A stretch of DNA of 64,000 nt from Arcticibacter eurypsychrophilus (lineage in GTDB: Bacteria > Bacteroidota > Bacteroidia > Sphingobacteriales > Sphingobacteriaceae): assembly GCF_001730525.1 (NCBI RefSeq), contig NZ_MDFN01000005.1:1-64000 (forward strand), in the 5' to 3' direction. This document shows positions 49,571-53,594 of this stretch, piece after piece. How positions within the stretch are numbered: position 1 is the stretch's first letter; every line of letters begins with the position of its first letter. The translations under genes were made by a program, and so were the position numbers. Under the pieces are notes generated by a model, which saw only the letters and a program-made list of their open reading frames with translations, searched no databases and had not been told where the DNA came from.

Positions 49571-50914
49571 TTAGATGCCGACATAGGTAAGGGGACTAAT
49601 TTTCCTGATTTCTTCTTTAACACTTTCTGAAACATTTAAAGTTGATACAAAATTAGCTATCGTATTTGCGCTTACTTTTTCGTTGGTTCGTGTTAACTCT
49701 TTTAAAGCTTCATAAGGGTTCGGGTAGCCCTCCCTTCTTAAAATAGTTTGAATGGCTTCCGCTGCAACTGCCCAGTTTTCGTTAAGATGTCTTTCGATGA
49801 CACTCTGATTTAACAATAATTTACCAAGTCCTTTGAGGGTAGATTTAATGGCAATCAAGGTATGAGCGATGGGAACTCCAACATTACGGAGCACTGTAGA
49901 ATCGGTCAGATCCCGTTGGAGTCGAGAGACTGGTAGTTTAGCTGCAAAGTGTTCAAATAATGCGTTAGCGATGCCTACGTTACCCTCAGAGTTTTCAAAA
50001 TCTATTGGGTTAACTTTATGAGGCATAGCAGACGATCCGATTTCACCGGCTTTGATCTTTTGGCCGAAATAATTCATCATGATATACATCCACATATCGC
50101 GATTTAAATCAAGTATGATATTATTAATGCGCTTAAAGGCGTCGCAGTGAGCGGCAAAATTATCGTAGTGCTCAATTTGTGTGGTGTATTGAGAGCGATT
50201 TAATTTCAACTCATCGTTAACAAAGTTATCCGCAAACTGCTTCCAATTTATTTCCGGATAAGCAACATGATGGGCATTAAAGTTACCGGTAGCTCCACCA
50301 AATTTAGCTGAAAAGGGGATATGCTTGAATTGTTTTAGCTGTGCTTCAATGCGTTCAACAAAAACATAGATTTCTTTGCCAAGACGTGTTGGAGAGGCAG
50401 CCTGTCCGTGGGTGTGAGCGAGCATAGGGATGTTCTCCCAAGTTGCAGCAAGCTCTTTAAGTTTAGCAAGCAATTCATCTACAGCCGGAAGATAGGATTG
50501 TTCTACAGCAAGTTTAAATGAGTATGGAATTGCGGTATTGTTGATGTCTTGGGATGTAAGTCCAAAGTGTATAAATTCTTTGTAAGCATGAAGATCTAGC
50601 TTGTCAAACACTTCTTTAATAAAGTATTCTACTGCTTTAACATCATGATTGGTGATGCTTTCTATATCTTTTACCCGTTGAGCATCAGCTTCAGTAAAGT
50701 TTTCGTAAATGGTTTTTAATGCGACATATTTACCGGCTGGAAAATCTTTCAGAGGAGGGAGAGGAATGGAACATAATTTTATAAAGTACTCCACTTCAAT
50801 AAATACTCTATAACGTATTAGAGCAGCTTCAGAAAAATAGGCAGAAAGTTCGCGAGTTGCTTTATTATATCGACCATCTACAGGGGAAATGGCACTTAAT
50901 GAAGTTAATATCAT
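49571..50914 (-). CDS. purB: Adenylosuccinate lyase
   Basis: A 447-residue cytoplasmic lyase in purine synthesis, releasing fumarate from SAICAR and adenylosuccinate. The superfamily signature GSSAMPHKVNPIDFEN holds the catalytic Ser loop. The N-terminus LTSLSAISPVDGRYN is typical of the longer E. coli-like form. Monocistronic. Confidence 0.96.
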   Translation of the reverse strand: MILTSLSAISPVDGRYNKATRELSAYFSEAALIRYRVFIEVEYFIKLCSIPLPPLKDFPAGKYVALKTIYENFTEADAQRVKDIESITNHDVKAVEYFIKEVFDKLDLHAYKEFIHFGLTSQDINNTAIPYSFKLAVEQSYLPAVDELLAKLKELAATWENIPMLAHTHGQAASPTRLGKEIYVFVERIEAQLKQFKHIPFSAKFGGATGNFNAHHVAYPEINWKQFADNFVNDELKLNRSQYTTQIEHYDNFAAHCDAFKRINNIILDLNRDMWMYIMMNYFGQKIKAGEIGSSAMPHKVNPIDFENSEGNVGIANALFEHFAAKLPVSRLQRDLTDSTVLRNVGVPIAHTLIAIKSTLKGLGKLLLNQSVIERHLNENWAVAAEAIQTILRREGYPNPYEALKELTRTNEKVSANTIANFVSTLNVSESVKEEIRKISPLTYVGI

Positions 50915-51204
50915 GTTTTATTTTTGGCAAAGTTAATCTTTCCGGATGAAAGCTTAAATAGTATTTGTTTATTAATGAGTATTACAAAGGTAACCTTTGG
51001 CGTATAATCCGGGGAATACTGTTGGTACTGCAACTTTAATATGTTATTAAAAATCAATAGTGTTCGGGACTTGGTAGTAAAGTTTTAAGCAGGTAAATGT
51101 ATTTTTTTTATCACTAATTTTAGAAACACCTATTAGTTCATCTTTATAGAAGTAAATGACTTGTGATGGTATGATATAATCTGTTATAGTAAATAATATA
51201 AGAC
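50915..51204. other. Intergenic region upstream of purB
   Basis: No supported gene. It contains a palindromic AAAGGTAACCTTT at 50987-50999. This resembles the -35 part of the ECF promoters further right, but without the matching GTAT at the right distance. Confidence 0.4.
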
Positions 51205-51481: not shown

Positions 51482-51508
51482 ATTTATTTTTTTAATAGTT
51501 TATCGTTA

Positions 51509-51533
51509 ATACCAAAGTTTTCAAAAGGTAACC
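51509..51533 (-). promoter_or_regulatory. ECF-type promoter of lipoprotein A
   Basis: On the minus strand GGTTAC (51533-51528), 15 bases, then GTATTAA from 51512. Identical elements and spacing occur before lipoprotein B and before the ECF sigma gene. Confidence 0.72.
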
Positions 51534-51541
51534 TTTATAAA

Positions 51542-51578
51542 AAACAAAAACTTTGAGTATGAGTCAAAGTTTTTGTTT
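51542..51578. terminator. Terminator between the two lipoprotein genes
   Basis: A 15-bp perfect stem (51542-51556 with 51564-51578) with A- and T-rich ends, 15 bases past the stop of lipoprotein B on the minus strand. It separates the two transcripts, so each needs its own promoter. Confidence 0.8.
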
Positions 51579-51592
51579 CAAGGGTAAGTGAA

Positions 51593-51781
51593 TTACATGC
51601 CAGTTGAGTCAGCAGCTGCTGAATCAATAACTGCAGTAGTATCAGATAACATTGTAGTATCAGTTGTAGCAGAATCTACAGATGTAGAGTCAGTACCATT
51701 TTCAACTTTAGTAGAGTTACATGCAGATGCTGATAAAGTGATTGCTAATGCAATGAAACCGAATTTTACTAGATTTTTCAT
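51593..51781 (-). CDS. Tiny Ser/Thr/Asp-rich lipoprotein B
   Basis: A 62-residue lipoprotein from ATG 51781. The signal peptide MKNLVKFGFIALAITLSASAC ends in Cys21; the mature part of 42 residues is rich in Thr, Ser, Asp and Ala and likely disordered. The upstream in-frame codons are not used because the paralogue starts at the same MKNL. Divergent from the ECF sigma gene, with the same promoter elements. It may be a sensor, a protease substrate or an envelope stress product; this is inference from context. Confidence 0.8.
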   Translation of the reverse strand: MKNLVKFGFIALAITLSASACNSTKVENGTDSTSVDSATTDTTMLSDTTAVIDSAAADSTGM

Positions 51782-51819
51782 CTTGGTGATTATTATTAAT
51801 TTAAACAATTTACAGATTA

Positions 51820-51844
51820 ATACTTAAGATTGTAAAAAGTAACC
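51820..51844 (-). promoter_or_regulatory. ECF-type promoter of lipoprotein B
   Basis: On the minus strand GGTTAC (51844-51839), 15 bases, then GTATTAA from 51823. The predicted 5' leader is about 30 bases. Confidence 0.72.
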
Positions 51845-51889
51845 CATGGGATTGAATATATTTTTTATTTATTATTTCATTTATCATTG

Positions 51890-51915
51890 GGTTACAAATT
51901 TCATAATTAAGTATA
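51890..51915 (+). promoter_or_regulatory. ECF-type promoter of the sigma factor gene
   Basis: GGTTAC (51890-51895), 15 bases, then GTATA (51911-51915). This matches the two lipoprotein promoters exactly in the -35 part and spacing, which suggests autoregulation. It lies so close to the GTG start at 51920 that the mRNA may have almost no leader. Confidence 0.7.
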
Positions 51916-51919
51916 AATA

Positions 51920-52486
51920 GTGAGCAGAGAGGTAAAAAGGTTTGAACCAAGTGATAATGAGGTTATACTTGGAATTCTTAATGACTCGAAAGGCGTTCTG
52001 GATAAATTGTACGAGGCATATTTTCCAATGATTTTACAACTTGTTGTCATGAACAATGGAAATGATGATGATGCCAAAGATATATTTCAGGAGTCTGTTA
52101 TCGTTCTTTACAATAAAGTTAAAAAAGGGGACTTTGTACTGAATAGTAAATTGAAAACTTTTATTTATTCAGTTTGCAGAAGGCTTTGGTTAAAAAGGCT
52201 ATCTCAAAAGAGTCGGGTAACGGGTAATATAGTTGATTTTGAAGAGGTGCTCTCTGTAGAAGATGATATTGAGCAACATGAAGAGAGGGATAAACAGTTT
52301 GATTTAATGGAACTTGCTCTAGGTCGTCTTGGTGAACCTTGTAAAACGATTATAGAGGATTTTTATATGAATAGTAAGTCAATGCAAGATATATGTGAAA
52401 AGTTTGGTTATACCAATGCAGATAATGCAAAAAACCAAAAGTACAAATGCCTGCAACGCTTGAAAAAGTTATTTTTTCAAGCATAA
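51920..52486 (+). CDS. ECF RNA polymerase sigma factor
   Basis: A 188-residue group IV sigma factor. Region 2 is seen at about 20-95 (LDKLYEAYFPMILQL and DAKDIFQESVIVLYNKV), and region 4 at about 125-188 (CKTIIEDFYMNSKSMQDICEKFGYTNADNAKNQKYKCLQRLKK), the HTH that reads the -35 element. The GTG at 51920 is the only upstream start that keeps region 2 whole; the next ATG (52028) would cut it. It is followed after ten bases by a probable anti-sigma/protease fusion and is divergent from two small lipoproteins with the same promoter pattern. Confidence 0.88.
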   Translation: MSREVKRFEPSDNEVILGILNDSKGVLDKLYEAYFPMILQLVVMNNGNDDDAKDIFQESVIVLYNKVKKGDFVLNSKLKTFIYSVCRRLWLKRLSQKSRVTGNIVDFEEVLSVEDDIEQHEERDKQFDLMELALGRLGEPCKTIIEDFYMNSKSMQDICEKFGYTNADNAKNQKYKCLQRLKKLFFQA

Positions 52487-52496
52487 TCAATAAACA

Positions 52497-53594
52497 ATGG
52501 ACATAACTGAACAAATTGAAGCTTATTTGATGAATGAAATGTCTGATGAAGAATCAGCTGCATTTGAGCAGTCAAGGGCTATAGATCCTTCTTTAGACCG
52601 GAAGGTGGTCCTGCATGAGCAATTTATGAAGCAAATAAAAGAGTATGGGGAGCATCGAAAGTTGATTTCCGATATGAATGCAATACATGCTCGATTAGAT
52701 ATTTCTGCCATTCGCGAAGAGGTTATTCCTACATCGGTAAAAATGAAGGTATTATGGAAAAAGTATCATTCTAATGTTGCTGTAGCGGCTTCTATAGCTA
52801 TATTGGCTGTCTTAACTACTTTATTGTCTACAGGATCTTTCAATCAGGCCACTTCTATCAGATCAGATTATAATGCCTTAAGAAGAGAATGGAGCAGAGA
52901 CATCAATACGAAGGTTAAGCGCTCCCAAAATGAAATCTTACAAAATATTAATGCCTCTTCAAAAAGCCCATCTACTCCTTCTTTATTTAGTGGTACCGGG
53001 TTTGCATTAAATACAGATGGTTACGTTATAACTAACTATCACGTGGTTAAGGGTGCTGATTCTGTATATATTCAAGATAACGATGGTATTTCTTATAAAG
53101 CGACAACGGTATATATTCATCCTTCTTACGATATCGCAGTCTTAAAAGTGATTGATCCTTCTTTTAAAACATTACGATCTTTACCATATTCTTTCAAGAA
53201 ATCAGGCTCTGATCTGGGGGTTGATGTATACACACTTGGTTACCCGAAAGATGACCTTACTTATACCCGAGGTTACTTAAGTTCTATGAGCGGTTATGCT
53301 GGTGATACGATTGCTTATCAGGTAGATATTTCTGTAAATGGTGGTAATAGCGGAGGCCCTTTATTGGATAGCAAAGGAAATGTAGTTGGTATTGTTAATG
53401 CAAAACAGGACAAGACAGATGGTGCTTCATTTGCGATAAAGTCAGCGTATTTATTAGAGGCTATACAAGCTATGCCTAAAGATAGTTTAGGCAGAAAGGT
53501 TATATTGAACACTAAAAATACGCTATCTTCATTGAGTAGAGGTGATCAGATTAAAAGGATTGAGAATTATATTTACATGGTTAAGGTTTACTAG
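52497..53594 (+). CDS. Membrane-anchored trypsin/HtrA-like protease with anti-sigma-like N-terminus
   Basis: A 365-residue protein with three parts. Residues 1-90 are helical, acidic and cytoplasmic, and look like the N-terminus of Bacteroidota anti-sigma factors (DITEQIEAYLMNEMSDEE). One membrane segment lies at about 92-112. After a linker, residues 160-330 form a chymotrypsin-fold protease with an intact triad: His182 (NYHVV), Asp212 (YDIAVLK) and Ser285 (NGGNSGGPLL). No PDZ domain is present. Position directly behind the ECF sigma gene supports a role in holding that sigma factor and linking its release to a periplasmic proteolytic event. The protease call is firm; the anti-sigma part is inference. 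Confidence 0.85.
   Translation: MDITEQIEAYLMNEMSDEESAAFEQSRAIDPSLDRKVVLHEQFMKQIKEYGEHRKLISDMNAIHARLDISAIREEVIPTSVKMKVLWKKYHSNVAVAASIAILAVLTTLLSTGSFNQATSIRSDYNALRREWSRDINTKVKRSQNEILQNINASSKSPSTPSLFSGTGFALNTDGYVITNYHVVKGADSVYIQDNDGISYKATTVYIHPSYDIAVLKVIDPSFKTLRSLPYSFKKSGSDLGVDVYTLGYPKDDLTYTRGYLSSMSGYAGDTIAYQVDISVNGGNSGGPLLDSKGNVVGIVNAKQDKTDGASFAIKSAYLLEAIQAMPKDSLGRKVILNTKNTLSSLSRGDQIKRIENYIYMVKVY

Follow-up and report, generated by a model that had tools for sequence, protein, structure and literature searches.

Autoregulated ECF sigma factors with membrane-bound anti-sigma partners are a known kind of regulatory system. The RpoE (sigma E)–RseA–DegS system of Escherichia coli combines an autoregulated envelope ECF sigma factor, a membrane anti-sigma factor and a periplasmic DegS-type protease (for DegS, see the account in PMC8103513). 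Within the Bacteroidota, the passages of PMC9308784 on the Phocaeicola vulgatus pair M0N98_03761/03760, and on the Bacteroides fragilis pair cited there, describe a sigma factor that responds to envelope stress and has an unusual, large anti-sigma factor. Class I anti-sigma domains lie beside only 6% of Bacteroidetes ECF factors, according to the relevant part of a survey (PMC7406223), and two papers on the Bacteroidota BAM complex (PMC12611786, PMC12578637) hold no passage on sigma factors or envelope stress. The general O-glycosylation system of the phylum modifies exported proteins at a motif that PMC12871550 and PMC8729774 give as D-S/T with, in most cases, L, I, V, T, A, S or M in the next position.

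The locus described here lies in a 64,000-nucleotide stretch of the Arcticibacter eurypsychrophilus genome (the window) and comprises an ECF sigma gene, a partner gene downstream of it and two tiny lipoprotein genes (Table 1). We consider it likely, from sequence comparison, that three promoter sites at this locus form a small autoregulated circuit in which the partner acts as the anti-sigma factor. Unlike RpoE–RseA–DegS, the probable anti-sigma part and the DegS-like part are in one polypeptide without a PDZ domain, and the promoter is of a GGTTAC/GTATTAA type with a predicted regulon that is very small and consists of tiny lipoproteins. The partner also differs from the P. vulgatus anti-sigma factor, which by its description in PMC9308784 ends in an outer-membrane beta-barrel, whereas the protein in the window ends in a protease. 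As far as a limited literature search shows, this variant of the known kind is new in three respects: its DegS-like protease is part of a fusion, its promoter has this sequence, and its output consists of mini-lipoproteins dense in sequons. The sigma factor may nevertheless belong to a group that the main ECF classification already lists.

Table 1 Features of the sigma locus, in positions of the window
Feature	Position	Strand	Details
Tiny lipoprotein A, 68 aa	51275..51481	-	lipobox, D/S/T-rich tail, 5 sequons; NF050142 29.5 bits
Lipoprotein gene A, predicted promoter	51506..51533	-	GGTTAC (51533-51528), N15, GTATTAA (51512-51506)
Tiny lipoprotein B, 62 aa	51593..51781	-	lipobox, D/S/T-rich tail, 6 sequons; NF050142 44.7 bits
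Lipoprotein gene B, predicted promoter	51817..51844	-	GGTTAC (51844-51839), N15, GTATTAA (51823-51817)
Sigma operon, predicted promoter	51889..51917	+	G-GGTTAC (-35, 51890-51895), N15, GTATAAA (-10, 51911-51917)
ECF sigma factor, 188 aa	51920..52486	+	GTG start 5 bases after GTAT; TIGR02937, Sigma70_r2
Partner, 365 aa: DegS/HtrA-like serine protease with a probable membrane anti-sigma part	52497..53594	+	
Partner, helical domain			residues ~1-75
Partner, membrane helix	52776-52832	+	residues 94-112; hydrophobic segment
Partner, protease domain	52989-53441	+	residues ~165-315; triad H182 D212 S285

The DNA signal shared by the sigma gene and both lipoprotein genes is very likely real. A preliminary description of this DNA had proposed three correctly oriented copies of GGTTAC-N15-GTAT with differing spacers, and no other gene start in the window with a full match; this holds throughout, save that the plus-strand site ends at 51914 and not at 51915. 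The window contains exactly three copies (minus 51533-51509, minus 51844-51820 and plus 51890-51914), each oriented towards its start codon, with gaps from GTAT to the start codon of 27 bases for lipoprotein A (51481, minus strand), 38 for lipoprotein B (51781, minus strand) and 5 for the sigma gene (51920, plus strand). When up to one mismatch is allowed, the window gives six matches against a shuffle mean of 2.96, a count that is unremarkable by itself because 8 of 100 shuffles reach six. The promoter of lipoprotein A has a corresponding copy in loci L043-L045. A minus-strand GGTTACC half-site at 50989-50995, upstream of the gene at 49571-50914, was rejected as a further candidate: it has no correctly spaced -10 box and is absent in L043 and L044.

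Sequence logos over relatives, with spacings of 15 or 16, extend the -10 box to GTAT[TA]AA (GTATTAA or GTATAAA) and reveal a frequent G before GGTTAC and an A/T-rich stretch after it. The logos were built from exact matches to GGTTAC and GTAT, a selection that by itself makes the six bases of the one box and the four of the other invariant; this does not apply to the AA of the -10 box or to the preceding G. Genome-wide, the bare GGTTAC-N15-GTAT motif has 12 matches against 11 for the reversed control, and seven of the nine matches elsewhere in the genome fall inside open frames of more than 120 codons. The preliminary description had held that a pattern both unconserved in related loci and common at random positions would speak against a promoter. 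The bare motif is indeed unspecific, because the reversed control is equally common; the longer form is not, as GGTTACN{15,16}GTATWAA has three matches in the whole 4.69 Mb genome, all at the sigma locus, against one for the control. The clustering is likewise specific, because the three exact copies within 406 bases compare with about 0.0008 expected from the density of the other nine matches. No wider regulon is seen in this genome with up to one mismatch at N15 (24 matches against 25 for the control), and none of the 21 one-mismatch N15 sites leads to a lipoprotein among frames of at least 45 aa starting within 120 bases. The regulon in A. eurypsychrophilus looks like these three promoters, with weaker sites indistinguishable from background.

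For comparison with relatives, a search with the sigma protein gave 566 loci, of which the best 80, mainly from Sphingobacteriaceae, Chitinophagaceae and Cytophagales, were used. The window is closely related to Arcticibacter svalbardensis, with a sigma factor that is 96% identical.

The two tiny lipoproteins are predicted to be exported, on the basis of their lipoboxes, and carry D-S/T-hydrophobic sequons in their tails. In both respects they resemble substrates of the general Bacteroidota O-glycosylation system, for which the relevant parts of PMC12871550 and PMC8729774 support the sequon D-S/T-A/I/L/V/M/T; compared with that system, the density of about one sequon per ten residues stands out here, and glycosylation is a prediction. 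Eighty-six lipoproteins were pooled, comprising 78 of the 80 lipoproteins that the rule gave at the sigma loci (themselves the best 80 of 566; the other two lipoproteins contain unread residues), six unlinked ones and the two in the window. In their tails, D[ST][AILMTV] sequons number 410, where shuffles that preserve composition give 76 ± 7; the exact ratio is not to be leaned on because the shuffles ignore relatedness and repeats. Ser or Thr follows 468 of the 517 Asp residues, and K, D, E, N and G are avoided after D[ST] (K and D are seen three and two times against about 48 and 58 expected). The sequon density is 9.7 per 100 residues (first 48), against 1.56 in 20 other lipoproteins of the genome (those recovered by the rule from 28 weak PG1828-type matches) and 0.12 in six other window proteins taken as cytoplasmic.

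Lys is the last residue in 55 of the 86 pooled lipoproteins, and their D[ST] pairs are mostly 5-8 residues apart; in outline, both features resemble murein lipoproteins. The two window lipoproteins also resemble the PG1828-family lipoprotein (NF050142) in small size, similar signal peptide and low-complexity tail. Membership in that family was rejected as unsupported, both scores being below the NF050142 cut-off of 50 bits; at E up to 1, this model has matches in 12 of 14 control genomes. The genomic setting differs too: 17 of 22 PG1828-type loci (L153-L174) lack both the sigma gene and the motif over a distance of about 1.5 kb, one has the motif only, and the four with both come from two genomes of the window's own family. 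A link to the Porphyromonas gingivalis sigma factor PG1827 (SigH), drawn from neighbouring locus numbers alone, was likewise rejected as unsupported.

A possible but rather unlikely reading of the D/S/T-rich tails is that they are low-complexity filler or Ala-rich helices, in which the sequons are a by-product of repeats. The spacing of D[ST], which is near a heptad, and the murein-lipoprotein-like terminal Lys would suit such a structure. The residues avoided after D[ST] argue the other way, since the tails as such contain many K and D residues, and this avoidance fits the published sequon. We favour the reading of the tiny lipoproteins as putative O-glycosylation substrates.

The protease part of the partner is well supported. 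Residues 166-299 match Trypsin_2 (E 2.1e-26), and the triad H182, D212 and S285 is present in all 79 aligned partners, from the window and 78 of the best 80 of 566 loci (in the other two, L068 and L101, the partner is cut off by the end of the record). The model of the full protein has a mean pLDDT of 81.2, and its best PDB match is DegS without its PDZ domain (2qf0_C, E 3.3e-13); the chymotrypsin-like fold with a His-Asp-Ser triad places this domain with DegS/HtrA (S1C) proteases. The chain continues for no more than about 50 residues past the protease domain, and Pfam at E up to 0.1 gives no PDZ domain. Near the C-terminus (53532-53591), outside the protease domain, Q351 and V362 are nearly invariant (78 of 79 and 76 of 79 partners).

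An anti-sigma function of the remaining part is probable. The gene adjoins the sigma gene and its product in the window has one membrane helix, as in class I membrane anti-sigma factors. Residues 1-85, modelled alone, give a mean pLDDT of 87.9; nine of the ten PDB rows returned by Foldseek for this model are anti-sigma or sigma/anti-sigma entries, all of them weak (E 1.3 or worse), and its VIA Z of at most 6.1 is within reach of unrelated helical models that share a common helical arrangement. Matches to two profiles stay below the cut-offs: zf-HC2 matches 14 of 39 partner members, and an anti-sigma model from NCBI matches 7. The partner would then unite RseA-like and DegS-like functions in one chain.

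Alternatively, the partner may be an envelope protease that is co-transcribed with the sigma gene, and control of the sigma factor may act mainly through its level, a view that draws on the lack of a significant anti-sigma domain match and that we regard as unlikely. Against it, 79 of the best 80 of 566 loci have a frame of at least 250 aa downstream of the sigma gene, and the predicted helical N-terminus, with its few, mostly anti-sigma, Foldseek rows, is succeeded by one hydrophobic helix. A helical N-terminal domain followed by one membrane helix is the usual layout of membrane anti-sigma factors.

The sigma protein scores 69 bits with TIGR02937 (cut-off 42.9; residues 27-183) and 28.3 bits with Pfam Sigma70_r2 (cut-off 24), and thus belongs to the ECF (group 4) sigma-70 factors by region 2 and by the overall ECF model; Pfam reports no region 4 in the 188-aa protein. 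Because its GTG lies only 5 bases past GTAT (51911-51922), the sigma mRNA would have little or no leader in the window's clade, unless translation begins at another codon. In 66 of the 78 promoter-bearing loci among the best 80 of 566, the start codon that comes first in frame past the promoter is GTG; its distance from GTAT is 5 or 6 bases in 22 of these loci and at least 12 in 44. Leaderless messages make up 5.5% in Flavobacterium psychrophilum (PMC9723704).

The element is conserved at orthologous sigma loci. Among the best 80 of 566 loci, 78 have it a short way before the sigma gene (59 with N15 and 19 with N16), a minus-strand copy lies within 1300 bases in 69 and leads to a small lipobox protein in 68, and reversed-motif controls, whole or box by box, give 0 of 80 on both sides; since the loci are related, these counts are inflated and do not represent independent events. 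In the two of the 80 that lack the full element at the sigma gene (L077 and L082), GGTTAC is present and GTAT has one mismatch, as judged by eye. Seven of the 80 have fewer than 1300 upstream bases, and the 12 without a linked lipoprotein under the rule used include one with 54 (L085). Across relatives the spacers diverged while both boxes stayed. GGTTAC is also kept at the corresponding place in three more distant sigma relatives from other families, which are 38, 39 and 54% identical; it is followed there by GTAT at N17, GAATTAA at N16 and GATATAA at N15 (by eye). The conservation in related loci, for which the preliminary description had called as a check, is present. In three Mucilaginibacter-type loci (L055, L056 and L057), the region upstream of the sigma gene contains a tandem array of three tiny lipoprotein genes, each with its own promoter copy.

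At the level of whole genomes, the 31 of the window's own family that have a sigma orthologue contain 113 strict sites against 42 for the control, with at least two in each. Six own-family genomes without a close orthologue (G012, G013, G015, G027, G028 and G036, the last placed here with a sigma match of only 31%) contain five against one. Strict sites show no excess in 23 genomes of other families (13 against 17 for the control); this is so although seven of these genomes contain a sigma relative that reaches E 1e-20, and in the three of the seven inspected GGTTAC is present with no strict -10 at N15 or N16. A tighter pattern matches 188 of 201 own-family genomes, with controls mostly zero by eye.

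In four genomes (G008, G021, G024 and G032) the sigma and tiny lipoprotein genes lie on separate contigs or some 1.9 Mb from each other, and both have the promoter; mere neighbourhood is therefore unlikely as the reason for its retention. Together with the conserved sites, these unlinked genes favour the autoregulated mini-regulon that the preliminary description had put forward on the sequence of the window. The own-family genomes have 50 sites away from the sigma locus, of which 22, mostly chosen for logo-like bases after GGTTAC, were inspected. Twenty chosen unlinked sites lead to eight tiny lipoproteins, two DUF4349 lipoproteins, three DUF4294 proteins, one other lipoprotein-like frame and, in six cases (L229, L231, L233, L237, L240 and L247), nothing evident, a target rate that is not genome-wide because the sites were mostly chosen by resemblance to the logo and 22 of the 50 were covered. 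Twelve further sites, ten of them taken from the tighter-pattern matches listed, lead to one tiny lipoprotein and, by eye, to three DUF4294-like, two DUF4349-like and one other membrane-like protein; five (L251, L252, L257, L258 and L259) have no convincing target, and the L259 site, which by eye precedes a glycine hydroxymethyltransferase-like frame, is probably due to chance. The recurrent unlinked targets in relatives are exported envelope proteins.

Away from the sigma gene, the promoter stands before DUF4294 proteins at L236, L238 and L241 (Pfam) and at L248-L250 (by eye), and before DUF4349-type lipoproteins at L235 and L239 (Pfam) and at L254 and L255 (by eye).

It is very unlikely that some other regulator, be it a further ECF sigma factor or a DNA-binding protein, reads these sites and has the sigma gene as just one of its targets. 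For this reading, a loose search gives 23 candidate sigma-like regions in the genome, only one of them passing E 1e-20, and the bare motif is as common as its reverse. Against it, the element tracks the sigma gene: strict sites number at least two in each of the 31 orthologue-bearing family genomes and five in total over the six that lack the orthologue. A sigma factor also requires just such a pair of boxes, set at a fixed spacing of 15 or 16 and facing gene starts. Other ECF factors could share this promoter type.

With the window's own sigma factor as the probable reader of the sites, we infer an envelope-sensing module of sigma factor and anti-sigma protease, with sequon-dense mini-lipoproteins as its main output. 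One site would drive the sigma gene together with the partner gene, and the other two would drive one tiny lipoprotein gene each. The cytosolic N-terminal helices of the partner would hold the sigma factor at the inner membrane, with the periplasmic half forming the predicted DegS-like protease. An envelope signal acting on this half may cause the partner to cut itself or a neighbouring copy and so release the sigma factor; self-cleavage has, in our estimate, somewhat less than an even chance of being correct. The freed sigma factor would amplify its own operon and the lipoprotein genes, and newly made anti-sigma factor would close the loop; the response would be self-limiting because sigma and anti-sigma factor share one promoter. 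The lipoproteins could serve as cheap membrane-anchored scaffolds, and with about one O-glycosylation sequon per ten residues the likely output would be glycan-rich envelope material. A further, quite improbable elaboration is a self-contained quality-control loop for lipoprotein export or O-glycosylation, in which the tiny lipoproteins act as sentinels: if their sequons remained unmodified, or if they were held up at the inner membrane, their tails would contact the protease half of the partner and trigger its self-cleavage, and the sigma factor thus freed would make more sentinel; if so, the product of the regulon would also be its signal.

The control of envelope stress in the Bacteroidota is poorly mapped, and this locus represents a little-studied envelope response. 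It brings together a promoter, a sigma factor and a candidate anti-sigma factor that carries its own DegS-like protease, as well as a defined output, and is conserved across several families. Since all of these are found at one conserved locus, the whole pathway is testable with few constructs. The locus also suggests a job for the O-glycosylation system of the phylum, which would be served by dedicated, inducible carrier lipoproteins.
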